DNA of 20,371 nucleotides from a virus, in the IMG/VR virus record IMGVR_UViG_3300025869_000133, positions 1-20,371 of that record. One strand, 5' to 3'. Position numbers and translations under genes: made by a program. The first letter of the stretch is position 1; the number at the start of each line of letters is the position of its first letter. Of this stretch, positions 3 through 18,919 are shown one piece after another. Below the pieces are notes generated by a model. The model did no database searches, was not told the DNA's origin, and saw only the letters and a program-made list of their open reading frames with translations.

Positions 3-338
3 ACAGAAATCGTTGGTAATATCATTCACTGTAAAAATGCAAAGTCAAGATTGACTGTTGAGAACAGAGTGGTTGATGTTAGATTATCATACGACAAAGG
101 ACTGGACAGGTACTATGGTCTATTAGATATGGCACTTGCATTCGGAGTATTTGAGAAATCATCTACAAGAGTTAAACTTCCAAATGGTAAAACCGAGTTC
201 GGAAAAACCATTAACAACAATCCCGAAAAATACTTCACACCCGAAGTAATGGATTTATTAGAGACACACGCACAGGAATATTTTAAATATGGAAGCAAGA
301 CTAGAACAGACGATACTGAAGAATCTGATACAGAGTGA
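3..338 (+). CDS. uvsX: UvsX-like recombinase, C-terminal part (5' end outside window)
   Basis: RecA-family recombinase of T4-like phages, which loads on single-stranded DNA and drives strand exchange for recombination-dependent replication and repair. Only the last 111 codons are present; the reading frame is open from the left edge and no start codon is needed inside the window. Recognisable stretches are the SRLTVENR segment, the DKGLDRYYGLLD segment and GKTINNNPEKYFTPE, which I know from the C-terminal part of marine T4-like UvsX proteins. The Walker motifs lie upstream and cannot be checked. The 3' end overlaps the next gene (gp41-type helicase) by 50 bases, so the two are probably co-transcribed and translationally coupled. 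The uvsX-gp41 neighbourhood supports the call. Confidence 0.88.
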   Translation, partial: TEIVGNIIHCKNAKSRLTVENRVVDVRLSYDKGLDRYYGLLDMALAFGVFEKSSTRVKLPNGKTEFGKTINNNPEKYFTPEVMDLLETHAQEYFKYGSKTRTDDTEESDTE

Positions 339-1692
339 GGAATTTGCACGAAAGTGTGTTCCATTCATTAAATCAGATTACTTTACAGACCCCGAGGAAA
401 GAGTAGTATTTCAAGAGATTACAAAATATTTTGAATCTTATACTAAAAATCCAACAGTAGAAGCATTACTTATCAATCTTGATAATTCAAGTAATCTTAG
501 CGATACCGTTCTTAAGAACGCTAAGGGGATTGTTGCAAAAGTTAAAACAGATACCGAAGAGACACCACAAGATTGGTTGGTCACTGAAACTGAACAGTGG
601 TGTAAAGACCGTGCAGTTTATATTGCAGTGATGGATTCCATAGAAGTTTTAGATAAGAAGTCTCAAAGGTCAACAGGTGAAATACCCGAACTCCTTAAGG
701 ATGCACTTTCAGTTTCCTTTGATACCAATATTGGTCACGATGTCTTAGAAGATGCAGAAGCACGATTTGAGTTCTACAATATGGAAGAAGAGAAGATTCC
801 ATTTGACCTAGAATACTTTAACAAGATTACTAAAGGTGGTTTACCTAACAAGACTTTAAACATTTGTCTTGCAGGAACTGGTGTTGGTAAGTCATTGTTT
901 ATGTGTCATCAAGCTGCAAGTTGTCTTATGATGAACAAGAATGTATTATACATTACACTTGAAATGTCAGAGGAAAGAATTGCAGAAAGAATTGATGCAA
1001 ACATTATGAATATCCCTATGAAAGATATTCCCGAAATGAATAAGAAACTCTATGATAAGAAAATTGACAAGTTAAAGAGTAAGACAAAGGGTAAACTTAT
1101 TGTCAAAGAATATCCTACTGCATCTGCTCACGTTGGACACTTCAGACATCTATTACAAGAGTTAGACATTAAGAAAGACTTTCAACCCGATATAATATTT
1201 GTTGATTACTTAAACATATGTTCAAGTGCAAGAGTCAAGCCAGGAAGTGGTGCAAACTCTTATACACTTGTTAAGAGTATTGCAGAGGAACTTAGGGGAC
1301 TTGCAGTAGAGTTTGATGTCCCATTAGTAAGTGCAACACAGACTACAAGAAGTGGTTACGGTTCTACTGATATTGGACTCGAAGACACTTCAGAATCATT
1401 TGGATTACCTGCAACTGCAGATTTAATGTTTGCACTGATTACATCCGATGAACTAGAAGAACTAGACCAACTCGTAGTCAAACAGTTGAAGAACAGATAC
1501 AATGACCCAACTATATTCAAAAGGTTTATCATTGGTATTGATAGAAGTCGTATGAAACTCTATGATTGTGAACAAGATGCACAAGAAGAACTGGTCGATA
1601 GTGGTATGAATGTCGATGATGATGTACCAGTATTTGATAGAGGAAGGAACGATGGTCAAAAAAGAGATTACAGTGCATTTAAGGTAGAATAA
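289..1692 (+). CDS. 41: Replicative DNA helicase, DnaB family (T4 gp41-like)
   Basis: Hexameric 5'-3' helicase that unwinds the fork and works with the gp61-type primase (gene at 15564). Length 467 residues, close to T4 gp41. The N-terminal domain (about 1-115) is helical. The RecA-like ATPase domain starts near 165, with Walker A GTGVGKS at 196-202, TLEMSEERIAERI just after (the DnaB-type segment) and Walker B IIFVDYLN at 302-309. The later segment with SATQTTRSGYGSTD matches the DnaB H3/H4 region. The start at 289 is the only good one: it gives the typical beginning MEARLEQTILKNLI and lies inside the uvsX end, overlapping it by 50 bases. A weak AGGA lies about 13 bases upstream. In T4 gp41 and gp61 act as one primosome; here about 14 kb separates them. 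Confidence 0.93.
   Translation: MEARLEQTILKNLIQSEEFARKCVPFIKSDYFTDPEERVVFQEITKYFESYTKNPTVEALLINLDNSSNLSDTVLKNAKGIVAKVKTDTEETPQDWLVTETEQWCKDRAVYIAVMDSIEVLDKKSQRSTGEIPELLKDALSVSFDTNIGHDVLEDAEARFEFYNMEEEKIPFDLEYFNKITKGGLPNKTLNICLAGTGVGKSLFMCHQAASCLMMNKNVLYITLEMSEERIAERIDANIMNIPMKDIPEMNKKLYDKKIDKLKSKTKGKLIVKEYPTASAHVGHFRHLLQELDIKKDFQPDIIFVDYLNICSSARVKPGSGANSYTLVKSIAEELRGLAVEFDVPLVSATQTTRSGYGSTDIGLEDTSESFGLPATADLMFALITSDELEELDQLVVKQLKNRYNDPTIFKRFIIGIDRSRMKLYDCEQDAQEELVDSGMNVDDDVPVFDRGRNDGQKRDYSAFKVE
496..525. repeat. Nested inverted repeat inside the helicase gene
   Basis: CTTAGCG (496-502) is matched by its exact reverse complement CGCTAAG (519-525). The 12-base perfect palindrome GTTCTTAAGAAC (508-519) lies between and partly overlaps the right arm. 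The two structures compete, since base 519 belongs to both. It lies in coding sequence for the N-terminal domain. No function is known to me and chance is possible. Confidence 0.5.
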
Positions 1693-2304: not shown

Positions 2305-2342
2305 GTAGTAATACTCACATAAATGTGATATAATACTACTAT
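2302..2342. promoter_or_regulatory. Inverted repeat over the start of the 2341 gene, with an extended -10 box inside
   Basis: ATAGTAGTA (2302-2310) pairs perfectly with TACTACTAT (2334-2342), and the last two bases of the right arm are the AT of the ATG. Inside is a second perfect repeat, TCACAT-AA-ATGTGA (2315-2328). Between the inner repeat and the right arm is TGATATAAT, an extended -10 promoter (TATAAT at 2329-2334). In mRNA coming from upstream the start codon would be paired. Transcripts from the 2297 late box would lack the left arm. The inner palindrome could also be an operator. Confidence 0.6.
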
Positions 2343-3540
2343 GGGCGCAAAGAATCTACATTTAGAACACTTAGAAGACGAGATTATCAATCAAGGGATT
2401 GATGGTGGTCGTGGTGCTATAAACTTCTTACGAGGTCTTAGAGATATGCTGAAGGGTAGTTCTAAGAAGTCTGTTAATATGACCGTCAAATGGGATGGTG
2501 CTCCTGCAATCTTTTGTGGTAAACATCCCGAAACCAATCAATTCTTTGTTGCAAAGAAATCACTATTCAATAAAGACCCACTATATTATACTTCAGAACA
2601 ACAAATAAAAGATGCACCCGAACTAAGTGGTACACTAGAGTCTAAATTCTTAGATTCATTCAAGTATTTGTCTGCACTATCATTTTCAGATATCTTACAG
2701 GGTGACTTAATGTTCACTGATGATAAAAAGATGGAAGATATAGATGGAACCCAATGTGTGACCTTTCAACCAAATACAATAATGTATGCTGTCGATATCA
2801 ATTCAGAACTTGGTGGAAAGATTGCAAACGCAAAACTAGGAATAGTGTTTCACACTACTTACACTGGTACAACAATTGATGACTTAAGTGCATCCTTCGG
2901 TGCAAAACTTCCAAGTGGAAGTAGCACAGATGTGTGGATGGATGATGCATCGTATAAAGATGTCAGTGGTAAAGGGTCGATGACTGCAAAGGAAACAGTT
3001 TCACTTACACAAGAACTATCTAAAACAGGTAAAGCATTTCACGGTATCAAAAGAAACGACTTACAGAAGTTTACTAAGATACAGGATACTATTGCAATGA
3101 AAGGTGCAGGTGCATCTTATAAAACATATTGCAACACTTTAATAAGACAAGGGAAGTTTAATCCAACATATAATGGATACATAAAACACTTTGAAAACTA
3201 TTGGAAAGATAAAGTAGTCGCAAAGGTCAAGATGGAAAAGACTAAAAAAATTAAAACAGAGATTGGACAACAACTCCTTGCAGAACTTCGTGGTCTTAAA
3301 TCCTTTATTGTAAATCTAACTGCATTTATGGGATACCTAGTGTCTGCAAAACAGATGATTATAACCGTACTAAATAGAGTAAAGAGTATAGGAACTTTTA
3401 AAAAAACTGCAACAGGATTTGAAACAGTAAACCCCGAGGGATATGTTGCAATTGATAATGATGGTAAAGCAGTCAAACTCGTAGATAGAATGGAGTTTGC
3501 ATTTAATAACTTTACTGCAATCAAAAACTGGGATAAGTAG
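2341..3540 (+). CDS. Conserved phage protein with nucleotidyltransferase/ligase-like motifs (DUF6267-like)
   Basis: I recognise the overall pattern as a conserved protein of marine T4-like phages that I recall as DUF6267; its function is not established. Length 399 residues. The segment VNMTVKWDGAPAIFCG carries K50-W-D-G53, matching motif I (KxDG) of covalent nucleotidyltransferases such as DNA and RNA ligases, where the Lys takes AMP. Downstream, LQGDLMF (119-125) is placed like motif III, and GIVFHTTYTG (167-176) like motif IIIa. I cannot assign motifs IV and V with confidence, so activity is inference. The C-terminal third is basic and helical. The stop codon TAG directly abuts the ATG of the basic protein at 3541, and the nucleotidyltransferase-kinase follows, suggesting a co-expressed set. 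Translation start is set in an inverted repeat. Confidence 0.85.
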   Translation: MGAKNLHLEHLEDEIINQGIDGGRGAINFLRGLRDMLKGSSKKSVNMTVKWDGAPAIFCGKHPETNQFFVAKKSLFNKDPLYYTSEQQIKDAPELSGTLESKFLDSFKYLSALSFSDILQGDLMFTDDKKMEDIDGTQCVTFQPNTIMYAVDINSELGGKIANAKLGIVFHTTYTGTTIDDLSASFGAKLPSGSSTDVWMDDASYKDVSGKGSMTAKETVSLTQELSKTGKAFHGIKRNDLQKFTKIQDTIAMKGAGASYKTYCNTLIRQGKFNPTYNGYIKHFENYWKDKVVAKVKMEKTKKIKTEIGQQLLAELRGLKSFIVNLTAFMGYLVSAKQMIITVLNRVKSIGTFKKTATGFETVNPEGYVAIDNDGKAVKLVDRMEFAFNNFTAIKNWDK

Positions 3541-3915
3541 ATGAAATCTTTTATAGAAATATTTAAAGAAATGCAAGAAGCAGACTCTATGCAAACTCGT
3601 CTTAAGAAAAAGAAAGCATTCAGAAAAAACAAACATAAAATTCTTCAGAAACGCAAAAAGGCAATGAAGAGGAAAAACCTAGACCCTGTAAAACTTGCAA
3701 AACGTGCTAAGAAACAAGCAAGAGATATGGTTGCAAAGAAAATGTTAAAGGGTCAATCAAAAGCAAAATTAGGTATGAGTGGTAAAGAAGCACTCGAAAA
3801 GAAATTAGATAAGAAAAAGGGTGCAATAGCAAAACTTGCTAAAAAACTTCTACCATTAATACGCAAAAAAGAAGCATCAAAAACTAAGAAAGTGAAGAAA
3901 GAAGATGACAAATAA
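3541..3915 (+). CDS. Very basic small protein, candidate head-internal DNA-binding protein
   Basis: 124 residues, more than a third Lys or Arg, with almost no aromatic residues after position 27. It is predicted to be helical and likely binds nucleic acid by charge. It begins MKSFIEIFKEMQEADSM, which resembles the T4 capsid-targeting sequence MKTYQEFIAE in its M-K-x-aromatic opening and E at position 10, but lacks a perfect [L/I]-x-E site. The segment RAKKQARDMVAKKMLKG (55-71) and the C-terminal KKGAIAKLAKKLLPLIRKK look like a recurring phage module known to me only as hypothetical. The gene starts at the base after the preceding stop codon and overlaps the next gene by 11 bases, so coupling is likely. 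A role in packing DNA in the head is inference from charge and context. Confidence 0.8.
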   Translation: MKSFIEIFKEMQEADSMQTRLKKKKAFRKNKHKILQKRKKAMKRKNLDPVKLAKRAKKQARDMVAKKMLKGQSKAKLGMSGKEALEKKLDKKKGAIAKLAKKLLPLIRKKEASKTKKVKKEDDK

Positions 3916-5203
3916 AAATTTTACAAGTTGGTTATCAGAAGCAAAGGGTAAAGGTGCAGTATTTACTTTCGGTAGATTCAATCCACCCACAACAGGACAC
4001 GAAAAACTTGTTAACAAACTAAATGGAGTTGCAAAAGGATATGGAGATGCACTCCTATTCTCATCTCATTCAAATGATAAAGTTAAAAATCCATTATCCC
4101 ACAAAGATAAGGTTAAATATCTAAAAGCATTTTTTGGTAAAAAGGTAACAGTTATAGACACAGATGTTAAACAAGTGTTCCAAATCTTAGTGTTTCTTTT
4201 TGATAAAAAATATACAAAAATTAGAATGGTTGTTGGGTCAGATAGAGTAAGAGAGTTTGATACACTTCTAAACAAATACAACTCGGTTAAAGCACGACAC
4301 GGTTTCTACAAATTTGAGGAAATAGAAGTAATCTCTGCAGGTGAAAGAGACCCCGACTCAGATGATGTCAGTGGAATGTCTGCAAGTAAGATGAGAGAGT
4401 TCGCAGAGAAAGGTGACTTTGATTCATTCAAACAAGGAGTTCCTTCTACTGGTGTAAGATTTGCAGAGAAACTATATAAATCAATCCGTAAAGGAATGGG
4501 TATTGCAGAAAGTACACTACCGTCATATATGCTGGAAGATTTGATACAAGAAGGAGTCTATGACCCTGGCACATTCAAAGCAGTATTTCTTTCAGGTGGG
4601 CCAGGAAGTGGTAAATCTGCAGTAGTCAAAAAGTTGGCATTAACTGCACTTGGTTTAAAAATGGTCAACACTGATAGAGCATTTGAGAACGGATTAAAGA
4701 AAGCAGGAATGTCACTTGACCTTAGAGGTGCAGACTTTAGTAAAGTAGACCCTATCCGTGCAAAAGCAAAAAAGATTACAGGTAAAAACTTAGATGGATA
4801 TATCGATGGAAGACTAGGTCTTATCTTTGACACTACAAGTGCAAAGTCGGATAAGATTAAGTCCTACAAAAAACTGTTAGATACATTAGGATATGAATAC
4901 AAAATGGTATTTGTTAATGCAAGTCTAGACAATGCACAAAAAAGAAATGACTTAAGGTCTAGAAAACTACCATCTGCAATTGTAAAGAAAGATTGGGACG
5001 CTGCACAAAAAAATGCAAAAGAGTATCGAACAATTTTTGGTAAAGACTTTGTAGAGATTACGAATGACGATGACCTTGCAAGTCTTGACAAAAAGGCAAA
5101 TTCACTATACAGTAAACTGTTAGGTTGGTCTACTTCATTCCCTAAAAACAAAATTGCACTACAATGGAAACAACGAGAGTTGGATGCAAAACGAACTAAA
5201 TAG
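3905..5203 (+). CDS. Bifunctional nucleotidyltransferase and P-loop kinase-like protein
   Basis: 432 residues with two enzyme domains. Domain 1 (about 18-195) is a HIGH-superfamily nucleotidyltransferase: GRFNPPTTGH at 23-32 is the nucleotide-binding motif, VVGSDR at 109-114 is conserved, and MSASKMR at 158-164 matches the ISSTxxR motif. Domain 2 (about 224-405) is a P-loop kinase: FLSGGPGSGKS with Walker A at 231-238, then VNTDRAF (the Asp-Arg seen in zeta-toxin-like kinases) and IFDTTSAK. The arrangement recalls NadR (NMN adenylyltransferase plus ribosylnicotinamide kinase), but the substrate is unknown. The N-terminus MTNKNFTSWLSEA has L-S-E at 10-12, and the linker has IAE (200-202) and IQE (214-216), all possible prohead-protease sites. 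The start overlaps the preceding gene by 11 bases. Confidence 0.87.
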   Translation: MTNKNFTSWLSEAKGKGAVFTFGRFNPPTTGHEKLVNKLNGVAKGYGDALLFSSHSNDKVKNPLSHKDKVKYLKAFFGKKVTVIDTDVKQVFQILVFLFDKKYTKIRMVVGSDRVREFDTLLNKYNSVKARHGFYKFEEIEVISAGERDPDSDDVSGMSASKMREFAEKGDFDSFKQGVPSTGVRFAEKLYKSIRKGMGIAESTLPSYMLEDLIQEGVYDPGTFKAVFLSGGPGSGKSAVVKKLALTALGLKMVNTDRAFENGLKKAGMSLDLRGADFSKVDPIRAKAKKITGKNLDGYIDGRLGLIFDTTSAKSDKIKSYKKLLDTLGYEYKMVFVNASLDNAQKRNDLRSRKLPSAIVKKDWDAAQKNAKEYRTIFGKDFVEITNDDDLASLDKKANSLYSKLLGWSTSFPKNKIALQWKQRELDAKRTK

Positions 5204-5210
5204 TAGTATG
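5196..5210 (+). promoter_or_regulatory. Late promoter box predicting a leaderless transcript
   Basis: CTAAATA (5196-5202) overlaps the stop of the preceding gene and is followed by GTAGT and ATG at 5208. In T4 late promoters the last A of the box is at -6, so +1 falls exactly on the A of this ATG. The identical spacing occurs at 13106-13120. Confidence 0.55.
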
Positions 5211-6347
5211 TTAGATTTAATAAGAAATAAGATAAAAACTCTAAAAGAAGATGCAGTCTCAGATGTTAAAGCAAAACACGTAGACGAATTAGAGAGACTA
5301 AAGACTAGACAGGAAAGAGAACTAGAACAATTAAAATCAAGACAAGTACGACAAACAGATACTGCAAAATCCAATGTAGATGCAGAAAAGGAAAGAGAGA
5401 AACAAAGAAAGTCAGTATCATCTGAAGAGACATCGGTAAAACAAGACAAAGATGTTAAGGATAAAAAAGGCACTCAACCTGCAAAATACTATGCAGGAGA
5501 TATGTCTAAGTCTACAAAAGACAAAAGAGATGCACACTTCAAAGCAAAAAAGAGTGGCCCAGCACCTGGCGACCACGATGCAGAAACAAAACCATCTCAA
5601 CATACTATAAAGTTTAAGAAAATGTTTGGTGAAGACAGTTTAGAAGAAGATAACGGTCTCCAAGCAAAAGCAGATAAGTCGGGTATATCAAAAGGTATAT
5701 TACAGAAAGTTTACAACAGAGGACTTGCTGCATTTAAGACTGGTCATAGACCTGGCGCAACTGCACCTCAATGGGCAATGGCAAGAGTTAATTCATTCAT
5801 CACTAAAGGTTCGGGAACTTGGGGTGGTGCAGATAAAGACCTTGCTAAACAAGCAGGTGGTAAATCAGAGTCAATAGAAGAAGGAACTGATATCAAAAAA
5901 CAACTCAGCAAGATTAAGGGGTTAAGTAAGAAACAACTAGAAACATTGTCAACAATGAACACTTCACAACTAACAGTTTTAGTTCAACAGTTATCTTCAT
6001 TAGTAATGGGTGAACAAGACGAGTGTTGGGACGGATACACACAAAAAGGTATGAAAAAGAAAGGGGACAAAATGGTTCCTAATTGTGTTCCCGAAGAAAG
6101 AGACTATAAAAAAGAGTACGAAAACTACCAAGGTAAACCTGAACAAATTAAAAGACGTGCAAAGAGAAATGAAGCACGAAGAAGTTTAAAGGACAGAAAG
6201 GATATTAAAGGAAAGGATGTTCATCACAAGGATAACAATCCTATGAACAACGACAAATCAAATCTTTCCATAGTTAGTAAAAATTTTAATAGAAAAGAAC
6301 CTAGACTTAGGGAATTAAAGAACAAAGGAGCATTACCAAAATGTTAA
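5208..6347 (+). CDS. Modular phage protein: coiled coil, three conserved modules and a C-terminal HNH motif
   Basis: 379 residues from the ATG at 5208; an upstream TTG at 5154 would run into the preceding gene. Modules in order: N-terminal segment MLDLIRNKIKTLKE with an LKE site at 12-14; a charged coiled coil (15-75); a short module with KYYAGDMSKSTKDKRDAHF (from about 92); a module from about 149 to 220 with GILQKVYNRGLAAFKTGHRP, which I recall as a DUF5824-like phage domain; a Cys module (C273-W-D-G-Y to N-C293-V-P-E); and an HNH-type end with DVHHKDNNPMNN (337-348) and NLSIVSKNFNR. The paired His and Asn fit an HNH nuclease, though activity is unproven. LEE and IEE sites lie between modules. 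The stop overlaps the next gene by 7 bases. A head-internal nuclease is one possible role. Confidence 0.85.
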   Translation: MLDLIRNKIKTLKEDAVSDVKAKHVDELERLKTRQERELEQLKSRQVRQTDTAKSNVDAEKEREKQRKSVSSEETSVKQDKDVKDKKGTQPAKYYAGDMSKSTKDKRDAHFKAKKSGPAPGDHDAETKPSQHTIKFKKMFGEDSLEEDNGLQAKADKSGISKGILQKVYNRGLAAFKTGHRPGATAPQWAMARVNSFITKGSGTWGGADKDLAKQAGGKSESIEEGTDIKKQLSKIKGLSKKQLETLSTMNTSQLTVLVQQLSSLVMGEQDECWDGYTQKGMKKKGDKMVPNCVPEERDYKKEYENYQGKPEQIKRRAKRNEARRSLKDRKDIKGKDVHHKDNNPMNNDKSNLSIVSKNFNRKEPRLRELKNKGALPKC

Positions 6348-6874
6348 AAGAATATCACGAAATAGGAACAGACTCATATAGAAACTATCTTCAGAGAACA
6401 ACTCCTGAACAATCTATAGAAGAGTACGTCAAAGAATCGCAAAAGAATCTAAAAAGTCAAAAACAAAAACACTTTAGTCAAGTGTTCCAAAACCCTTTAA
6501 AAGGATTCCCTTACAACGAAGAGATTGAAGTAAGGAAAATTGAAGAGAAGTATAAACCTTACATAATGAAAGGTTTTGAAAGAGTTACAGACTTGTACGT
6601 CCAATTCAGAGGAAATGGAGAAGAGAAAGACTTCGCAAAAGCAAAGAAGATGGTTATGGATTATTCTAAGAAACATAAACTAGATATCAAAGACAATCCA
6701 AGAAACAAAGTATTCGGAACACCTCAAGAAGGTTCAAGTGCATATAAAATAAGTCTTTTTGCAAAGTTCACTAAAGATAAAGACCACGATTTTGCACCAT
6801 TATACAAACAATTATCTACATTAAAGACTGCAGAAGACCACGGTGGTGGTTATGCAGAACCAATTAAAAAATGA
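6341..6874 (+). CDS. Hypothetical protein, 177 residues
   Basis: I do not recognise this protein. It is hydrophilic, rich in Lys, Glu, Tyr and Phe, with no membrane segment, signal peptide or clear catalytic motif. The first third (1-50) is helical and charged. The middle part (about 75-150) alternates beta-like stretches such as VTDLYVQF and AYKISLFAKF with a helix DFAKAKKMVMDYSKKH, suggesting a small alpha/beta domain. It ends with HGGGYAEPIKK. The start overlaps the preceding HNH-motif gene by 7 bases, and the last codons overlap the next gene by 4 bases (ATGA type), so it is embedded in a translationally coupled run. The opening MLKEYHE has an L-K-E but is too short to be called a targeting sequence. 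Confidence 0.8.
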   Translation: MLKEYHEIGTDSYRNYLQRTTPEQSIEEYVKESQKNLKSQKQKHFSQVFQNPLKGFPYNEEIEVRKIEEKYKPYIMKGFERVTDLYVQFRGNGEEKDFAKAKKMVMDYSKKHKLDIKDNPRNKVFGTPQEGSSAYKISLFAKFTKDKDHDFAPLYKQLSTLKTAEDHGGGYAEPIKK

Positions 6875-7419
6875 AGACATTAAAGGAACAAGCACTAGAT
6901 ACAGTTATTCTTGACCTACAAGAATCTAATACAAATTTTATTGATAATCCTTTCAGATTGGGTTCATATATGTATTTTGCAACTATTAAAGAAGTGCGTA
7001 ACCTAGTTGCAGAACAAAGATATAGATTAACAGAAATTGATAAAAATATTTTAGAAACAGATTTAGGTGAGTATGAAGTTTATGAAGGAGATTTAGTTCC
7101 ACTTGATTGTCCTATGATGGATATAGTTGAAGAGGACGATAAGAAAGAACCTGAATTAAATAAACCTAAAGCAGGTGGTTCTAAGAAGTACTATGTGTAT
7201 GTTCGTGACCCTAAAACAAAAAATGTTAAGAAAGTTTCTTGGGGAGATACTACAGGACTTAAAGTTAAGATAGACGACCCTAAAGCACGAAAATCTTTTG
7301 CTGCAAGACACAATTGTTCTTCTGCAACTGATAAAACTAAAGCATCATATTGGGCGTGTAGACTTCCTCATTATGCGAAACAACTCGGATTATCGGGTGG
7401 TGGAAACTTTTTTTGGTAG
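6871..7419 (+). CDS. Two-module conserved phage protein (DUF5872-like C-terminus)
   Basis: 182 residues. The N-terminal segment MKTLKEQALDTVILDLQES has L-Q-E at 16-18, a possible prohead-protease site. Module 1 (about 20-95) contains FRLGSYMYFATIKEVRNL and YEGDLVPLDCP. Module 2 (about 105-182) contains KKYYVYVRD, VSWGD, DDPKARKSFAARHNC and SYWACRLPHYAK. I recall this as the DUF5872-type phage domain of unknown function; its two cysteines (149 and 162) and His residues could bind metal, but this is a guess. The protein ends in the Gly- and aromatic-rich GGGNFFW. It overlaps the preceding gene by 4 bases and is followed by a 28-base gap with the ribosome site of the next gene. Codon use is like the neighbours. 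Confidence 0.83.
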   Translation: MKTLKEQALDTVILDLQESNTNFIDNPFRLGSYMYFATIKEVRNLVAEQRYRLTEIDKNILETDLGEYEVYEGDLVPLDCPMMDIVEEDDKKEPELNKPKAGGSKKYYVYVRDPKTKNVKKVSWGDTTGLKVKIDDPKARKSFAARHNCSSATDKTKASYWACRLPHYAKQLGLSGGGNFFW

Positions 7420-8013: not shown

Positions 8014-8590
8014 GAGTTATAAATCAGAAAACTGGAAAGACAAATTAGACCAAGTGCGTGGACACATTGCACTAAAAGAAGGTTCTGTAGCACAAACTGC
8101 AGATGAAATCATCAATCAACAGATTGAAGAGGAACTTAACAATTCATTCAACGAAGTAATAGAAGAAGATGTTCTATTAGAAGCATCTGCTGGTGCAATG
8201 ATTGATAAGTTGTTCAATCTTAAAGGTGATAAAGATTCACAATACGGTGTTGCAAAGATGCTATCTATGACTGGTGTCAAAGTAGTCCAATCAATGCAGA
8301 AACAAAACCCAAAAGGATTCGAAAAGTTAATTGTTCAGTTAGGTAAAGAGAAAAAGATTACACTACCTACCAACAATAAACTAATGGCAATGTTCAAAGA
8401 TGCAGGTGTTAAACCTCTCAAAGATGAAATTGACCTAACCAAAGAAGAAAAACTTTCAGTAGAGAAATCTGCAGAAAAACTAACAGAAAGAAATATGTTA
8501 GGTAGACTTGCGAAACAATTACAATTAAACGAAGAAGGTAAACAAAAAATGTTTGATTACTTCGAAAACGGGAAAATTACAAATGATTAA
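8012..8590 (+). CDS. Hypothetical late protein with protease-site-rich N-terminus
   Basis: 192 residues, no recognised family. The first 57 residues are acidic and helical and contain [L/I]-x-E triplets at 21-23 (LKE), 38-40 (IEE), 50-52 (IEE) and 55-57 (LLE, followed by A). This resembles a removable pro-region of the kind the T4 gp21 protease trims, but some triplets are expected by chance. The remaining part (58-192) is helical, with AGAMIDKLFNLKGDKDSQYGVAKM and VKVVQSMQKQNPKGFEKLIVQLGKEKK. No catalytic motif is visible. Two late-type promoter boxes precede it, the second a perfect TATAAATA, supporting late expression. The end overlaps the next gene by 8 bases. It may be a head-internal or scaffold-type protein; this is inference. 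Confidence 0.8.
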   Translation: MSYKSENWKDKLDQVRGHIALKEGSVAQTADEIINQQIEEELNNSFNEVIEEDVLLEASAGAMIDKLFNLKGDKDSQYGVAKMLSMTGVKVVQSMQKQNPKGFEKLIVQLGKEKKITLPTNNKLMAMFKDAGVKPLKDEIDLTKEEKLSVEKSAEKLTERNMLGRLAKQLQLNEEGKQKMFDYFENGKITND

Positions 8591-8915
8591 TGAACTCTCA
8601 AAAGACCTACTTGCTGATGTCAAAGCAATAATGGAAAAGAAATTAGACCCTGTCAATGACAAGGAAAACGATAAGAAATTTAAAGACCGTAAAGACAAAG
8701 ACATCGATAACGATGGTGATGTAGATGGTTCAGATGAATATCTTCATAAGAAACGTGCTGCAACTGATGATGCAATTGATGGTGGCAAGAAACCTGCAAA
8801 GAACGAAGACCAAGGACAATTTATTTACGCTGCTAAACAAGCAAAGAAAAAAGGTGAAAAGGAATTTATGTTTGCAGGGAAAAAATATTCCGTGGATGTA
8901 AAAGACGAGGAGTAG
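8583..8915 (+). CDS. Small protein with an EF-hand-like calcium-binding loop
   Basis: 110 residues from the ATG at 8583; a TTG at 8553 is open upstream but lies deep in the preceding gene. The loop DIDNDGDVDGSD at 40-51 has Asp at positions 1, 3, 5 and 12 and Gly at 6, as in EF-hand and dockerin calcium loops, followed by EYLHKKR. I know this arrangement as a recurrent one in marine phage proteins. The C-terminal part (about 78-105), with FIYAAKQAKKKGEKEFMFAGKKY, is a second small module seen in other phage proteins. The N-terminus MINELSKDLLADVKAIME ends in I-M-E at 16-18, a possible prohead-protease site. Only one EF-hand is present; pairing would need a partner or dimer. The overlap with the preceding gene is 8 bases. 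Confidence 0.82.
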   Translation: MINELSKDLLADVKAIMEKKLDPVNDKENDKKFKDRKDKDIDNDGDVDGSDEYLHKKRAATDDAIDGGKKPAKNEDQGQFIYAAKQAKKKGEKEFMFAGKKYSVDVKDEE

Positions 8916-8919
8916 TTCT

Positions 8920-10653
8920 ATGAACCTATTTCAACAATTAAAAGAAACTGCAAGAAAAGAATCTCTTAACGAGATATCTCAACAAGCAAAGATTCAAAAA
9001 GCGATAGATATTGCAACCTCAATGGGTGGTAATATGACAGGTGCTGTTAAAAGAATCGAACAAATCAAAAAAGGTTTATCCAAAAATAAGAATGTTGCAA
9101 ATGCATTAAGATTAGCAAACGAAGAAACAATCTCAGAAGATTACAAAAAAGTAATCAAAATGTTCCCAAGAGATAACGACTGGAAAAAACTTATCACAAA
9201 ACATAGACGTGCAATTGATGATTTCAGAAACAATAACAAAGATTTACCTTCTAAAGTAGAAGATGAATTACTTACTTGGGCATCACAAACTGGTGAAGTC
9301 AGTGGTAAACACGATGCAGAAGACTTCATAATGTCAATCCTTGATGAAAGTACTATATCAGAGAACTATAGAAAACTTGCAAAACACGGTATGGGAACAG
9401 AGACACCCAAGTCAGTCAAAGTTGGAACAGAGATTGATTACTACCAAAAAGATGGTGCAAAATATATGGGTAAAGTTGTTAAGATGGATAAACAATCTTA
9501 CACTGTAAAGGACGACAAGACTAGTAAAACACATAAGTTTTTCTACCACGACAGAATTAAAGCTGCAAAACTTCTTAAACAAGGTGATAACATACAAGAA
9601 AAAGTAGAGTATGCAGAATACAAATTCAGAAACAAGGGAGATGCTCAGAAAGCATTAAACTACTTTAAAAGTCAACAGTTAATCAAACTAGACATCAACG
9701 ATGATGGATTGAGTCAAGGTGAACTTGCAATCGATGCTGGTAAGAAAGATATGACTAAACAACACAAAGAAGTGTTAAAGAACTTCAAACCAAAAGTCCT
9801 CACAACAGAACAAACTATTTCAGAGGGTACTTGGGCAGTTCCCGATTCATATCCAAAATTAGTTGCATTACAAAAGTTCTTAAGAAAACCACATAAAGCA
9901 AAAACTGCTAAAGATGTAGAGAAGTTTACAAATGATGTATACGATTTCTTTGGAGACGATTCGTTCTTTGACGATTTAGGTGCATATGGAACTACATTGC
10001 CAGGTGGAGAAAAGGACGAAGACGGAAAACCACATTCTGCAGAGTATTTAAAACGTGCAAACCAATACAATAAAATTAAAAAGGGAACAGACTTAAATTT
10101 AGTTCTTATTAAACAATTAGGTGATTGGACTGGTAATGTCCTTAAGTTTAAAGGAGTAGAAATGGTACAATTCCCAAGAGATTGGTATCTAAAAGACAAC
10201 CCTAAACACAAAGATGATGATGCACAAATTAAAGCAAAACTAGAAAGTGTTCAAGAAGGTAAAGGTATGAAAAGAGGACGTGGTAATCTTAAATTCAAAA
10301 GACAAGATTCAATCAAAGCAGAAGCAGTATCAAGTGACCAACAAGCCGCAATTGCAATCGCAAAGAAAAAGAAAAATGAATCTGTTATGGATGCATACAG
10401 AGAAATGTGGGAAGAAAACTTAAAAGAAGAGATGATTACCTACAGAGTTAAAGGAATGCAGAGACCTGAAGAAGACAAATTCAAAAAATCTGCAAAGATG
10501 ATGGGTTTAAAGATTACTATGGACAAAGGTAGAGACGATACAGTAATCGTTATGAGTGGAACTAAGAAGAAACTCAGAGACTTTGATTCAGTTGCAAGAG
10601 GTAAATCTTCATACGGTGACCCTTCAACAATCAAACACTTTGACGAGAAGTAG
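8920..10653 (+). CDS. Modular 577-residue protein, candidate head-internal polyprotein
   Basis: No enzyme motif is recognised. The protein is a string of hydrophilic modules. It opens MNLFQQLKETARKESLNE with LKE (7-9) and LNE (16-18). The short motif (T)ISE recurs at 71-73 (preceded by EET, followed by DY), 146-148 (preceded by EST, followed by NY) and 300-302 (preceded by EQT, followed by GT). IQE is at 225-227 and VQE at 444-446. Modules between them are 19-73 (ATSMGGNMTGAVKRIEQIKK), 74-148, 149-227 (a beta-rich small domain), 228-302, 303-446, and a C-terminal part with AVSSDQQAAIAIAKKKK (469-485), a second targeting-like stretch (490-503) and a final basic module (506-577). [L/I]-x-E is the cut site of T4 gp21. 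GAGGAG seven bases upstream fixes the start. Confidence 0.85.
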   Translation: MNLFQQLKETARKESLNEISQQAKIQKAIDIATSMGGNMTGAVKRIEQIKKGLSKNKNVANALRLANEETISEDYKKVIKMFPRDNDWKKLITKHRRAIDDFRNNNKDLPSKVEDELLTWASQTGEVSGKHDAEDFIMSILDESTISENYRKLAKHGMGTETPKSVKVGTEIDYYQKDGAKYMGKVVKMDKQSYTVKDDKTSKTHKFFYHDRIKAAKLLKQGDNIQEKVEYAEYKFRNKGDAQKALNYFKSQQLIKLDINDDGLSQGELAIDAGKKDMTKQHKEVLKNFKPKVLTTEQTISEGTWAVPDSYPKLVALQKFLRKPHKAKTAKDVEKFTNDVYDFFGDDSFFDDLGAYGTTLPGGEKDEDGKPHSAEYLKRANQYNKIKKGTDLNLVLIKQLGDWTGNVLKFKGVEMVQFPRDWYLKDNPKHKDDDAQIKAKLESVQEGKGMKRGRGNLKFKRQDSIKAEAVSSDQQAAIAIAKKKKNESVMDAYREMWEENLKEEMITYRVKGMQRPEEDKFKKSAKMMGLKITMDKGRDDTVIVMSGTKKKLRDFDSVARGKSSYGDPSTIKHFDEK

Positions 10654-10654
10654 T

Positions 10655-11209
10655 ATGAGAGACTTTTTCAAAACCTATCGAGATATGCATTTAGTTGAAA
10701 TCAAACAACAAGAAGTTGATGCACTAAAGAAATTATCTAAAGAAATGCAATCAGTTCTAAAAGGTTATCAGAAGATTGTTGGAATGGGTGATAAAGAACT
10801 CAAAGATAAGAAGTACAACAAAGACTATGAAGCAGTTCTTAAAGCAAGAGATGTTATCTTACAACTTATTGGTAAAGTAAACACTCAAAAGATTCTCAAT
10901 AAAGAAGAGACAACAGTAGAGTTAGACGAAGGTCTAATACCAATGTATAAGAAAACTAAGTTTGAAGGTAAAGAGTTCGACAGAAAGAAAGAAATTGCAA
11001 TGATTAAGAAGATGATACAAGCAATTCATAAAGTTTCAAAGATGCAAGATAATATGCAATACACTGCTGAAACAGGTGGTGGAACTACAGGTGGAAACCC
11101 AAATAAAGTTTGGGAAAATCTAAGAGATGCAGAAAGAGCATTGATTGATTATATGGGTGGTGTTGAAAGAGGTAATTATGATGGTGTCATTGATATGGAC
11201 AGAGACTAA
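10655..11209 (+). CDS. Hypothetical protein with capsid-targeting-like N-terminus
   Basis: 184 residues from the ATG at 10655, which follows the preceding stop codon by one base; a longer frame opening at 10556 lies within the preceding gene and is unlikely. The N-terminus MRDFFKTYRDMHLVEI is amphipathic with L-V-E at 13-15, resembling the T4 capsid-targeting sequence. The rest is helical and charged: KKLSKEMQSVLKGYQKIVGM, then ARDVILQLIGKVNTQKIL and a region with IAMIKKMIQAIHKVSKM. A Gly-Thr-rich linker (ETGGGTTGGNPN, about 140-151) separates a C-terminal helix. The helical hairpin pattern suggests a coiled-coil structural protein; I do not recognise a family. The last base of its TAA is the first base of the next gene's ATG. 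Confidence 0.8.
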   Translation: MRDFFKTYRDMHLVEIKQQEVDALKKLSKEMQSVLKGYQKIVGMGDKELKDKKYNKDYEAVLKARDVILQLIGKVNTQKILNKEETTVELDEGLIPMYKKTKFEGKEFDRKKEIAMIKKMIQAIHKVSKMQDNMQYTAETGGGTTGGNPNKVWENLRDAERALIDYMGGVERGNYDGVIDMDRD

Positions 11210-12933: not shown

Positions 12934-13009
12934 GCTGGTTTAGCTCAGTAGGTAGAGCAACTGATTTGTAATCAGTAGGTCGTCAGTTCGATTCCGACAA
13001 TCAGCACCA
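12934..13009 (+). tRNA. tRNA-Thr(TGT)
   Basis: Full cloverleaf of 76 bases including an encoded CCA. The acceptor stem is GCTGGTT/AATCAGC with one G-T pair. The anticodon stem is ACTGA/TCAGT around the loop TTTGTAA, so the anticodon is TGT, reading the Thr codon ACA. The T-loop TTCGATT is standard; the T-stem GTCAG/CCGAC has one mismatch. It starts two bases after the preceding stop codon. Confidence 0.93.
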
Positions 13010-13019
13010 TTTTAACCGT

Positions 13020-13095
13020 GGGGTTATAGCTCAGTAGGGAGAGCGACTGGTTTGCAATCAGTAGGTCGTGGGTTCGATTCCCTCTAACTCCACCA
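13020..13095 (+). tRNA. tRNA-Ala(TGC)
   Basis: Full cloverleaf of 76 bases including an encoded CCA. The acceptor stem is GGGGTTA/TAACTCC with one G-T pair. The anticodon stem is ACTGG/TCAGT around the loop TTTGCAA, so the anticodon is TGC, reading the Ala codon GCA, by eye the dominant Ala codon in this window. It lies 10 bases after tRNA-Thr and its sequence from AGCTCAGTAGG onward is much like that tRNA. Confidence 0.93.
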
Positions 13096-15527: not shown

Positions 15528-15568
15528 TTGTAAATAACATTAGTATCGTGTATAATGGTACTAATGTT
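15528..15568 (+). promoter_or_regulatory. Sigma-70-type promoter with an inverted repeat around its -10 box and over the primase start
   Basis: TTGTAA (15528-15533), a 17-base spacer, then a perfect TATAAT (15551-15556) form a host-type promoter, expected for a phage early gene. AACATTAGTA (15536-15545) and TACTAATGTT (15559-15568) are perfect 10-base inverted arms with a 13-base loop that holds the -10 box. The preferred primase ATG (15564-15566) lies in the right arm. Transcription from this promoter would begin at about 15563, leaving out the left arm. Confidence 0.65.
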
Positions 15569-16613
15569 ATGGTTAGAACGAAAATACTTGAGTATGGTCG
15601 TGTCCTCATTGGATATGGCAAAATGGAAGGGAGATACTACCCTTAATCATCGTTGTCTCTATTGTGGAGACTCATCAAAAAACACTTACAAAGCACGTGG
15701 ATACCACTTTGCAGTCGAGCAGAGTTATATCTACAAATGTCATAATTGTGGTAAATCCACATCATCAGTAAATTTCATCAAAGACCACTTTCCAGTTATT
15801 CACAAAGAATATGTAAAAGAGTGGTTGAAAGAGAGTGGTCGTAAACCTAAGAGAAGTGCAAGTAGTCATAAGATGCCATCTTCTAATGAGTTTAAGTTTA
15901 AATCGAAAACAAAAGAGATAAATACAAAAGATATTATGACTGTTGATAATCTAAAATTCTTAATGAAACCGTGTAGTGAAGTTGCAGTTGCAAAGAAATA
16001 TCTAGAAGATAGAATGATTCCCGAAGTACATTTCAAAGATTTATGGTATACAGAACACCCACAATCTTTAAGTATGTTGTCTTCTAAATACAAAGACCGT
16101 GTCCTTGGAAATGACCCAAGAATCGTATTACCTTTCTTTAATGAGGAAGGGGAACTCATAGGAATCAGTGGAAGAGCAATCAATGACTCACCACTAAGAT
16201 ACTTAACTATGAGATTCCAAGATGAACTTCCACTCATCTTTAATCTCAATAAAGTGGACAAAACTAAAACTATCTATGTGACTGAAGGCCCAATAGACAG
16301 TTTATTCCTACCGAATGCAATTGCAGTTGCAGGTAGTGACTTCAAAAAAATAGATGAGACGATAAAGAATAATTCAGTACTCATATTTGATAATGAACCA
16401 AGAAACAGAGAGATATTAAAAAAGTTAGAAGAGGTTGTTGACCTTGGATATTCAGTATGTATTTGGAATGACAAACGAATAACTGAATACAAAGATATCA
16501 ATGAAATGATTGTTAATGGATTGACAGCAGAAGAAGTTAAGAGTATAATAGATAGATGCACATTCACGGGTCTTAGTGCAAAGTTAAAGATTAAGGAGTA
16601 CAAGAAGATATGA
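15564..16613 (+). CDS. 61: DNA primase (T4 gp61-like)
   Basis: Makes RNA primers on the lagging strand with the gp41-type helicase. 349 residues from the ATG at 15564. Domain 1 is a zinc-binding domain: C31-LY-C34 and C59-HN-C62, with KARGYHF between, as in T4-like primases. Domain 2 is a TOPRIM fold: TIYVTEGPIDSLFL with the metal-binding Glu, then LIFDNEPRNREI with the Asp and Glu, and later YKDINEMIVNG. An in-frame ATG at 15555 would add three residues; I prefer 15564 because the encoded MLWLERKY fits the usual start of these proteins. Neither has a Shine-Dalgarno sequence. The upstream inverted repeat holds the start codon in its right arm, so translation may depend on where the mRNA begins. 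It overlaps nrdA by 4 bases (ATGA). Confidence 0.9.
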   Translation: MLWLERKYLSMVVSSLDMAKWKGDTTLNHRCLYCGDSSKNTYKARGYHFAVEQSYIYKCHNCGKSTSSVNFIKDHFPVIHKEYVKEWLKESGRKPKRSASSHKMPSSNEFKFKSKTKEINTKDIMTVDNLKFLMKPCSEVAVAKKYLEDRMIPEVHFKDLWYTEHPQSLSMLSSKYKDRVLGNDPRIVLPFFNEEGELIGISGRAINDSPLRYLTMRFQDELPLIFNLNKVDKTKTIYVTEGPIDSLFLPNAIAVAGSDFKKIDETIKNNSVLIFDNEPRNREILKKLEEVVDLGYSVCIWNDKRITEYKDINEMIVNGLTAEEVKSIIDRCTFTGLSAKLKIKEYKKI

Positions 16614-18919
16614 ATGCAGATATAAGAGTTCTAAAGACAGACGGGTCAAAGGTAGAGATAAACTTAGAGAAGATTCACAGAATGGTAGAGAAAGCGTGTA
16701 AAGGAATTACAGGTGTTTCTGAATCATTAGTTGAGATGAATAGTGGTTTACAATTCTATGATGGTATAACCACAAAAGAAATACAAAAGATTTTAGTCAA
16801 GTCTGCAAGTGATTTAATATCCTTAGAGAATCCTAATTATCAATTCGTTGCTGCAAGACTACTACTGTTTGGAATACAGAAACAGGTATTCAATACCAAA
16901 TGGAAAGACAGCGAGATATATCCACCACTCAAAGAACTCATTGAAAGAAATATTAATAAAAGAGTATATGATTCAGAGATTTTATCTCTATATTCAGATG
17001 AAGAGATATCTAAGTTAGAGGGATATCTAAAACACGGAAGAGATTTAGACTTCACTTATGCAGGTCTTCAACAAGTTGTTGACAAATACTTAGTTCAAGA
17101 TAGAAGTAATGGAGAGGTATTTGAAACACCTCAATTTATGTATATGTTAATTGCAATGACTCTGTTTAGAAGCTATGGCGAGAATAGATTAGAATATGTT
17201 AAAAAATATTATGATGCAATCTCTACATTCAAAATTAATATTCCAACACCAATTATGTCGGGAGTGAGAACACCTTTAAGACAATTTGCATCTTGTGTTC
17301 TTATTGATTCCGATGATTCACTCGATTCAATCTTTAGTTCAGATATGGCAATCGGAAGATATGTTGCTCAAAGAGCAGGTATTGGAATCAATGCAGGAAG
17401 AATCAGAGGAATGGGTTCAAAGATTAGAGGAGGAGAAGTTCAACATACTGGAGTCATACCTTTCCTTAAGAAGTTTGAGACCACTGTTAGATGTTGTACT
17501 CAAAATGGAATTAGAGGTGGAAGTGCAACAGTTCATTTCCCTATCTGGCATCAAGAGATAGAAGATATCATAGTTCTGAAGAACAACAAAGGAACTGAAG
17601 ACAACAGAGTTAGAAAGTTAGATTACTCTATACAGATATCAGAGTTGTTCTATAAAAGATTCCTTGCAAACGAAGAGATAACATTGTTCAGTCCACATAA
17701 CGTGCCAGGATTATATGATGCATATGGAACAGAAGAGTTTGATGAGATGTATGAGAAGTATGAACGTGCAACTTCTATACCTAAGACTAAAGTAAGTGCA
17801 AGAGAACTGTTTACTGATATCTTAAAGGAAAGAGCAGAGACAGGAAGAATCTATATTATGAATATTGACCATTGTAATACTCATAGTTCATTCACTGATA
17901 AAGTTTATATGAGTAATCTATGTCAAGAGATAACATTACCAACAGACCCTATCGACCATATTGACGGAGAGGGAGAGATTGCATTATGTATTTTATCTGC
18001 AATCAACATTGGACTTGCAAGAGAGGATGAACTGGAATTATTATGCGACCTTGCAGTTAGAGGATTAGAAGAATTAATTGATTATCAAAAATATCCAATC
18101 AATGCAGCACAAAGGTCAACACTTGCAAGAAGGTCACTTGGAATAGGATACATTGGTCTTGCACATTATTTTGCAAAGAATAAGGTCAAGTATGACGACC
18201 AAGATGCTTGGAACTTGATACACGAACTAACAGAAAAATTCCAATACCATCTTCTAAAATCATCAAATGATATTGCAAAGGAGAAAGGTGCTTGTGAGTA
18301 TTTTGACAGAACAAAATATGCAGAAGGACAATTACCAATTGACCACTACAAGAAAGAAGTAGATGAACTAGTAAAACCAGTTTATAAAATGGATTGGGAA
18401 CAACTAAGAAAAGATATCAAAATACACGGTTTAAGACATTCCACATTGACTGCACAAATGCCATCTGAGAGTTCCTCAGTCGTCTGTAATGCAACGAATG
18501 GAATAGAACCACCTAGAGACTACCTTAGTGTCAAGAAGAGTAAGAAGGGTACATTGAAACAAATAGTTCCTCAATACACTCATCTTAAGAACTCTTACAC
18601 ATTACTATGGGATATGAAAGATAACACTGGATATATCAATGTGGTTGCAGTGATGCAGAAGTTTTTTGACCAAGCGATTAGTGGTAACTGGTCTTACAAT
18701 CCCGAGAACTATGATAATGGAGAAGTTCCAGTGTCAGTTATGGCAAAAGACTTATTAAACACTTACAAATATGGTTGGAAGACATCGTATTATCAAAATA
18801 CTATGGATGGTAAAACAGAAGATGTTGTTAAGGACGAGAACTCTGCAATGAATGACTATATACCACCTATGATGGATTCACCAAACGATGAGGAGGATTG
18901 CGATGCCTGTGCCATTTGA
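16610..18919 (+). CDS. nrdA: Ribonucleotide reductase class Ia, alpha subunit
   Basis: Reduces ribonucleoside diphosphates to deoxyribonucleoside diphosphates for phage DNA synthesis, with the NrdB radical subunit (gene at 19835). 769 residues, close to the E. coli 761. An N-terminal ATP-cone-like region (1-90) begins with RVLKTDGSKVEINLEKI. Active-site cysteines are C229 (ASCVLI) and C460 (ALCILSAINIG), the pair oxidised in each turnover. N436, C438 and E440 (SNLCQE) are the catalytic set with the thiyl-radical Cys. Y727-Y728 (TSYYQNT) carry the radical relay. The C-terminal CDAC supplies the shuttle cysteines. AAGGAG lies 12 bases before the start, and the gene overlaps primase by 4 bases. 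The 3' end overlaps the oxygenase-like gene by 17 bases. Confidence 0.96.
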   Translation: MNADIRVLKTDGSKVEINLEKIHRMVEKACKGITGVSESLVEMNSGLQFYDGITTKEIQKILVKSASDLISLENPNYQFVAARLLLFGIQKQVFNTKWKDSEIYPPLKELIERNINKRVYDSEILSLYSDEEISKLEGYLKHGRDLDFTYAGLQQVVDKYLVQDRSNGEVFETPQFMYMLIAMTLFRSYGENRLEYVKKYYDAISTFKINIPTPIMSGVRTPLRQFASCVLIDSDDSLDSIFSSDMAIGRYVAQRAGIGINAGRIRGMGSKIRGGEVQHTGVIPFLKKFETTVRCCTQNGIRGGSATVHFPIWHQEIEDIIVLKNNKGTEDNRVRKLDYSIQISELFYKRFLANEEITLFSPHNVPGLYDAYGTEEFDEMYEKYERATSIPKTKVSARELFTDILKERAETGRIYIMNIDHCNTHSSFTDKVYMSNLCQEITLPTDPIDHIDGEGEIALCILSAINIGLAREDELELLCDLAVRGLEELIDYQKYPINAAQRSTLARRSLGIGYIGLAHYFAKNKVKYDDQDAWNLIHELTEKFQYHLLKSSNDIAKEKGACEYFDRTKYAEGQLPIDHYKKEVDELVKPVYKMDWEQLRKDIKIHGLRHSTLTAQMPSESSSVVCNATNGIEPPRDYLSVKKSKKGTLKQIVPQYTHLKNSYTLLWDMKDNTGYINVVAVMQKFFDQAISGNWSYNPENYDNGEVPVSVMAKDLLNTYKYGWKTSYYQNTMDGKTEDVVKDENSAMNDYIPPMMDSPNDEEDCDACAI

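Follow-up and report, generated by a model that had tools for sequence, protein, structure and literature searches.

In bacteriophage T4, the prohead protease gp21 cleaves after the glutamate of L/I-X-E, cutting the core proteins gp22, gp67 and gp68 into several fragments and Alt at both ends (PMC9026906). In phiKZ and SPN3US, a trans-acting prohead protease (gp175 and gp245, respectively) that recognizes a short x-E motif processes many internal head proteins, with several cuts per propeptide (PMC10052503). Polyvalent proteins are multidomain mosaics of large, mixed enzyme domains that are delivered with the phage DNA; Iyer et al. (2017) drew a polyprotein analogy and proposed release via embedded metallopeptidase domains (PMC5512222). 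Precedents thus exist for internal proteins processed by gp21, for core proteins cut several times, and for injected proteins with multiple domains (PMC9026906, PMC10052503, PMC5512222). In the literature searched, most subscription papers lying outside the search, we found no description of payload modules that are linked into one chain and shuffled at sites of the prohead protease.

We analyzed a 20,371-base virus record (hereafter, the window) from a T4-like marine myovirus, in which the ORF at 8920-10653 on the plus strand encodes a 577-aa protein. We consider it likely that this protein is a modular, head-internal polyprotein processed by gp21; its cleavage, packaging, ejection and payload function are what we infer from the comparisons below.

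Similarly to T4 IPI, IPII, IPIII and Alt, the protein starts with a leader of the ~10-20-residue kind that ends in L/I-x-E and is predicted to be cut by a PF03420 protease, and a head location is known for cyanophage proteins encoded in the same genomic slot. However, each T4 IP gives one mature product, whereas a single leader here precedes as many as seven modules, which are swapped between genes; neither Pfam nor PHROGs revealed a sequence relationship to the IPs. The first-pass annotation had set the release of several proteins from one precursor against the single trims of T4 internal proteins, a contrast that is true of the IPs but breaks down for the multiply cut gp22, gp67 and gp68 and for Alt (PMC9026906). 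These core proteins also carry several L/I-x-E sites per chain, but their fragments are mostly discarded, whereas the segments described here are conserved, separately mobile and, in part, predicted to be folded. The 577-aa protein has no Pfam or PHROG match to gp22, gp67 or gp68, although a distant kinship is conceivable. The head proteins of phiKZ and SPN3US share the trans-acting protease, the x-E motif and the multiple cuts in one chain, but there the cuts remove propeptides, the phiKZ motif is S/A-x-E, and we found no description of module shuffling at the sites. Unlike in polyvalent proteins, no peptidase domain was found, and the joins fit a separate prohead protease. The 'cytidyltransferase' proteins of Kyanoviridae (S-SM1 T4-GC190, S-SZBM1_140, HTVC008M gp130 and Melnitz_18) are encoded in the same slot after the gp41 helicase, share some of the modules, have leaders of the same type and, in S-SM1 and S-SZBM1, are detected in virions; in the publications consulted, they are described as a metabolic gene or a virion structural protein, not as a protease-processed polyprotein.

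The interval between the helicase and the primase of the window encodes a series of proteins with leader-like N-termini, many of unknown family, the 577-aa protein among them (Table 1). Cyanophages and Methylophilales phage Melnitz are among the annotated phages that give the top helicase matches (60-62% identity); Melnitz, like HTVC008M, is assigned to Kyanoviridae. The 577-aa protein is charged and partly helical, and searches of Pfam and PHROGs yielded no match at inclusion level, nor any embedded peptidase or other named effector domain. In a tblastn search of 50,697 phage records, there was no match at E 1e-5; at a loose cut-off, the sole matches to stand out were to module A and came from C48C1 and Melnitz, the many from staphylococcal phages being at chance level. 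Below, PhixE denotes [ILVMF]-x-E, and a slash in a sequence marks the join.

Table 1. Genes of the window and predicted parts of the 577-aa protein (positions in the window; residue numbers refer to the respective protein).
Feature	Position	Strand	Description
gp41-type DnaB helicase	289-1692		
Nucleotidyltransferase-kinase	3905-5203	+	LSE leader 10-12; nucleotidyltransferase ~14-200; linker with IAE202, LED212, IQE216; P-loop kinase/zeta-like ~224-432
DUF5824 protein	5208-6347	+	LKE leader, DUF5824, short Cys cassette, HNH-like C-terminal module; FGE142, LEE147, IEE225, MGE269, VPE296
KYKPY-module protein	6341-6874	+	KYKPY behind IEE69; breakpoints: 34 starts at residue 67, 17 ends at 69
Same-build protein	6871-7419	+	breakpoint at 68 behind LGE67
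N-terminal leader, residues 1-18	8920-8973	+	MNLFQQLKETARKESLNE, ends LNE; capsid-targeting-sequence-like; predicted helix, then L-x-E
Module A, residues 19-73	8974-9138	+	ends ISE; at least 287 IMG/VR loci
Predicted gp21 site ISE 71-73	9130-9138	+	
Module B, residues 74-148	9139-9363	+	DYKKVIKMFPRD..., ends ISE; PhixE in 13/14 unrelated upstream contexts
Predicted gp21 site ISE 146-148	9355-9363	+	
Module C, residues 149-227	9364-9600	+	small SH3/Tudor-like barrel (predicted), ends IQE; PhixE in 18/18 unrelated upstream contexts
Predicted gp21 site IQE 225-227	9592-9600	+	
Module D, residues 228-302	9601-9825	+	ends ISE; PhixE in 6/6 unrelated upstream contexts
Predicted gp21 site ISE 300-302	9817-9825	+	
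Module E, residues 303-446	9826-10257	+	GTWAVPDSYPKL..., ends VQE 444-446; PhixE in 5/5 unrelated upstream contexts
Module F, residues 447-503	10258-10428	+	short helical QQAAIAIAK... segment, ends LKE 501-503
Module G, residues 504-577	10429-10650	+	ferredoxin-like alpha/beta domain (predicted); PhixE in 14/14 unrelated upstream contexts
Same-build protein	10655-11209	+	leader with LVE15; module join LDE92; breakpoints 13, 88-97
Two adjoining tRNA genes, Thr(TGT) and Ala(TGC)	12934-13095		directly downstream of the cluster
ORF reading as primase	15555-16613		
ORF reading as NrdA	16610-18919		
NrdB start, ORF reading	19835 onward		

All the sites that the first-pass annotation had noticed in the 577-aa protein, namely, ISE at 71-73, 146-148 and 300-302, LNE at 16-18 and IQE at 225-227, are present, and two more at module joins, VQE and LKE, had been missed. 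The full repeat, TISE, is found at residues 70-73, 145-148 and 299-302, following EE, ES and EQ (ANEETISEDY, LDESTISENY and TTEQTISEGT). A recent DNA duplication is ruled out because the three copies use different codons (ACA ATC TCA GAA, ACT ATA TCA GAG and ACT ATT TCA GAG), so the repeat exists at the protein level. Three TISE copies did not occur in any of 20,000 shuffles of the protein, but some 4-mer was found three times in 5.2% of the shuffles; the [IL]xE count is mildly high (8 vs 4.6 +/- 1.9 expected), and the [ILVMF]xE count is at expectation (11 vs 9.1). The claim that the repeats are unlikely by chance is thus weak when judged from this protein alone, whereas the position of the sites across homologues, to which we turned for this reason, is far from chance. 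Each of the eight [IL]xE is located either within the first 18 residues or at most 7 residues ahead of a join defined by homology; because the motif played a part in the choice of these joins, it is the non-homologous upstream contexts that provide the independent test.

A first scan of IMG/VR identified 59 related loci, and three further scans followed. The segments between the sites behave as exchangeable modules in ~200 related viral loci, where they are found permuted, fused to unrelated partners, encoded in neighbouring genes, or placed directly behind a short leader. The local matches of relatives break near residues 17, 65-71, 143-151, 227-232, 297 and 486-504. Module B precedes module A in L034, L035 and L058, directly follows a minimal leader in L058 (MKFKELRE/DYKK) and L056 (MKQFKAIRENIEE/DYKK), and belongs to an adjacent gene in L003, L025 and L030, the same three loci that retain the leader of the 577-aa protein. 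The KYKPY module, which in the window belongs to a separate gene (6341-6874), forms part of the 577-aa protein homologue in L003, where it sits between modules A and C, and in L025.

We ran module profiles over all loci and reduced the upstream contexts to mutually non-homologous ones. For modules B, C, D, E and G, PhixE closes exactly one residue before the module in 56 of the 57 contexts and occurs only sporadically at other offsets. For module A, PhixE is located four residues before the start of the profile in 13 of 31 contexts; the homologous segment of module F begins at residue 457 in 15 contexts, and its start is not sharply marked (PhixE in 1 of 15). Across 102 distinct junctions, P1 is E (.99), P2 is free, and P3 is L (.54), I (.32) or V (.08); the linkers are E-rich, with E at ~0.44 in both P5 and P6. 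As read from sequence, this L/I-x-E logo equals the published specificity of T4 gp21. Both the placement of the sites at junctions between distinct modules, noted in the first-pass annotation, and their retention where the flanks vary, which it put forward as a check, are borne out: the modules are exchangeable and, with unrelated flanks, P1 is E in 99% and P3 is L or I in 86% of the junctions.

The same tendency is apparent in bulk statistics. The 163 proteins compared contain 1,190 internal alignment breakpoints, of which 449 have [IL]xE within 8 residues compared with 217 +/- 13 expected, whereas the control motifs [IL]xD, [IL]xK and [IL]xQ are not enriched (1.04, 0.89 and 1.00 times the expectation). 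The 1.37-fold excess of E.[IL] at breakpoints indicates some general acidity of the linkers. The enrichment of [IL]xE is 2.13-fold in cluster-related proteins (1,099 breakpoints) and 1.65-fold in the other proteins of these loci (91 breakpoints); given the increase in the latter, we use the breakpoint statistic as supporting evidence only and rest the case on the exact-position test.

The AlphaFold2 model of the 577-aa protein (27 rows) has a mean pLDDT of 56, with minima below 50 at 1-43, 52-84, 142-159, 211-235, 253-278, 292-306 and 433-482. Five of these low-confidence stretches (52-84, 142-159, 211-235, 292-306 and 433-482) cover the joins, as expected had the junctions been disordered; given the low mean and the poor modelling of modules A and D, the linker reading is weak there. 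A single continuous domain is not supported because pLDDT is low at the joins. Module E is modelled best (pLDDT 76-85 over most of 311-420). For module C, Foldseek retrieved Tudor/SH3-like barrels (rmsd 1.3-1.6 over 42-45 residues, with weak E-values), and VIA-align matched module G to acylphosphatase 4hi2 (Z 9.8, rmsd 2.1 over 75 residues). The predicted ferredoxin-like fold of module G is common and shows no function; the catalytic Arg/Asn motif of acylphosphatases is not seen in its sequence, so we make no enzyme claim for G.

At least five other proteins encoded in the window share this design, and in five of these (3905-5203, 5208-6347, 6341-6874, 6871-7419 and 10655-11209), breakpoints coincide with PhixE. 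One of them is the nucleotidyltransferase-kinase, in which Pfam and PHROGs identified the domains. Its breakpoints lie at 202-204 and 214-216, and E12, E202 and E216 are invariant in 17 homologues. In the predicted structure (17 rows, mean pLDDT 71), the nucleotidyltransferase and the kinase form separate domains; pLDDT drops below 50 in the leader (1-13, with E12) and at 201-223 (with E202 and E216), the main low-confidence stretch between the domains. The kinase, whose join reads LIQE/GVYDPG in the window, is a stand-alone gene in HTVC008M (MIPFILKE/GLYDPG) and other loci. A relative of this protein in cyanophage S-SZBM1 has been classed as an auxiliary metabolic gene, yet was detected in virions. 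The counterpart of the 6871-7419 protein is joined to the cytidyltransferase gene in Melnitz and separate in HTVC008M; Melnitz_18 is a fusion of cytidyltransferase, DUF5824-type and 6871-7419-type modules.

In the DUF5824 protein, Pfam recovers DUF5824 and, weakly, HNH_3, and the breakpoints lie at 142-148, 226, 269-273 and 294-297. The ORF matches 216 phage records, mostly cyanophages; among the matches listed, that in P-SSM5 (82% identity) covers only the ~28-residue cassette CWDGYTQKGMKKKGDKMVPNCVPE (window 6015-6095, residues ~270-296), located between MGE and VPE. Judging by its sequence, this cassette may be released as a two-Cys peptide. The HNH-like module (window 6150-6347) matches regions annotated as HNH endonuclease or as scaffolding/internal virion protein in pelagipodophages HTVC011P, HTVC041P and HTVC204P, hinting at exchange between phage types.

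The gp21-type protease (PF03420) is not encoded in the 20-kb window, which is too short to hold it, but 8 of the 10 large contigs carrying the modules encode it. The sites of the major capsid protein gp23 in these contigs, predicted by position (N-terminal, before the mature start), are ISE/AAAP, LEE/AAPL, LSE/AAPL (two), LDE/AAPL, LNE/TAAN, MTE/NAAS and IGE/DVAA. PhixE is found in the first 25 residues of 11 of the 11 cluster proteins vs 5 of the 15 others, although the two groups were in part defined post hoc.

Virion proteomics of S-SZBM1 detected SSZBM1_136, _139 and _140, the last a cytidylyltransferase (PMC9146016); the respective genes occupy the same slot, flanked by the helicase and primase/NrdA. 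The virions of S-SM1 held cytidylyltransferase T4-GC190 (PMC3037559). These proteomes support a head location for the proteins of the slot, as distinct from the 577-aa protein itself.

Comparison of the relatives thus reveals several distinct units per chain separated by predicted protease sites. The idea, put forward in the first-pass annotation, that a prohead protease releases several small proteins from one precursor gains support from the exchangeable modules, the exact joins, the L/I-x-E logo, the gp21 genes and matching gp23 sites in relatives, and the predicted linkers, from all of which we infer cleavage. Most likely, the entire chain would be carried into the prohead core by the leader, acting as a capsid-targeting sequence. 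As the head matures, the gp21-type protease would probably cut after the glutamates of LNE18, ISE73, ISE148, IQE227, ISE302 and LKE503 and, less surely, VQE446. The released modules, which probably are injected payloads, would remain alongside the DNA and pass into the host with it. Because each join carries the same cleavable tripeptide, recombination could swap, reorder, split off or fuse modules and still leave their processing intact. This build would be explained by the use of one leader for several payloads and by modules small enough to pass through the portal.

The main rival is core clearing as in T4 gp22, gp67 and gp68, whereby the modules would simply build a scaffold or core, and the pieces cut by gp21 would leave the prohead as waste. 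T4 core proteins are, after all, multiply cut by gp21 (PMC9026906), and the proteins considered here are charged and partly helical; but modules C, E and G are predicted to be folded, two of them with recognizable folds, the neighbours of the same build hold enzyme domains, proteins of the slot are kept in mature cyanophage virions, and the module content is highly variable between relatives, so that we regard this explanation as unlikely. We see still less reason to favor a single multidomain head protein that is trimmed at the leader only, similarly to the T4 IPs that are trimmed once, with the inner PhixE being uncut flexible linkers where shuffling happens. The high E content of the linkers would raise the PhixE frequency by composition, in line with the E.[IL] excess at breakpoints, but composition cannot fix a residue at one exact position, as P1 and P3 are fixed around a free P2 between unrelated flanks; besides, [IL]xD and [IL]xK show no such excess. 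That the TISE repeats are incidental in a K/D/E-rich protein, a notion compatible with the near-expected motif count and the thrice-repeated 4-mers of the shuffles, is hardly credible because it is contradicted by the exact site position in the independent contexts.

If the polyprotein reading is correct, the head protease of a DNA phage splits multi-payload precursors, going beyond trimming and discarding, much like the processing of RNA-virus polyproteins. We lean, if only slightly, towards the broader view of a combinatorial payload system in marine T4-like phages, in which a pool of small cassettes bounded by the prohead-protease tripeptide recombines behind one targeting leader, and the injected cocktail can be reshuffled with no redesign of packaging or release. 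The rule module-PhixE-module would make readable many anonymous proteins in this slot of cyanophages and pelagiphages, the 'cytidylyltransferase' classed as a metabolic gene included, and from it the precise ends of the mature products can be predicted. The arrangement further points to a natural way of packing several proteins into a T4-like head with a single leader at the front.

Two other genes of the window are worth mentioning. The DUF6267 protein (2341-3540) is without a leader here, whereas Melnitz_16 (LINFSKYITE/DKGG) and HTVC008M gp127 (MYNDLLVE/DKNT) have one; in the window, loss or relocation of the leader is a possibility. Finally, the region 8583-8915 encodes an EF-hand/dockerin-like stretch, DKDIDNDGDVDGSDEYLHKKR, seen also in HTVC008M gp133 and Melnitz_21, which, from its sequence, is a possible calcium-binding module among the head-internal proteins.
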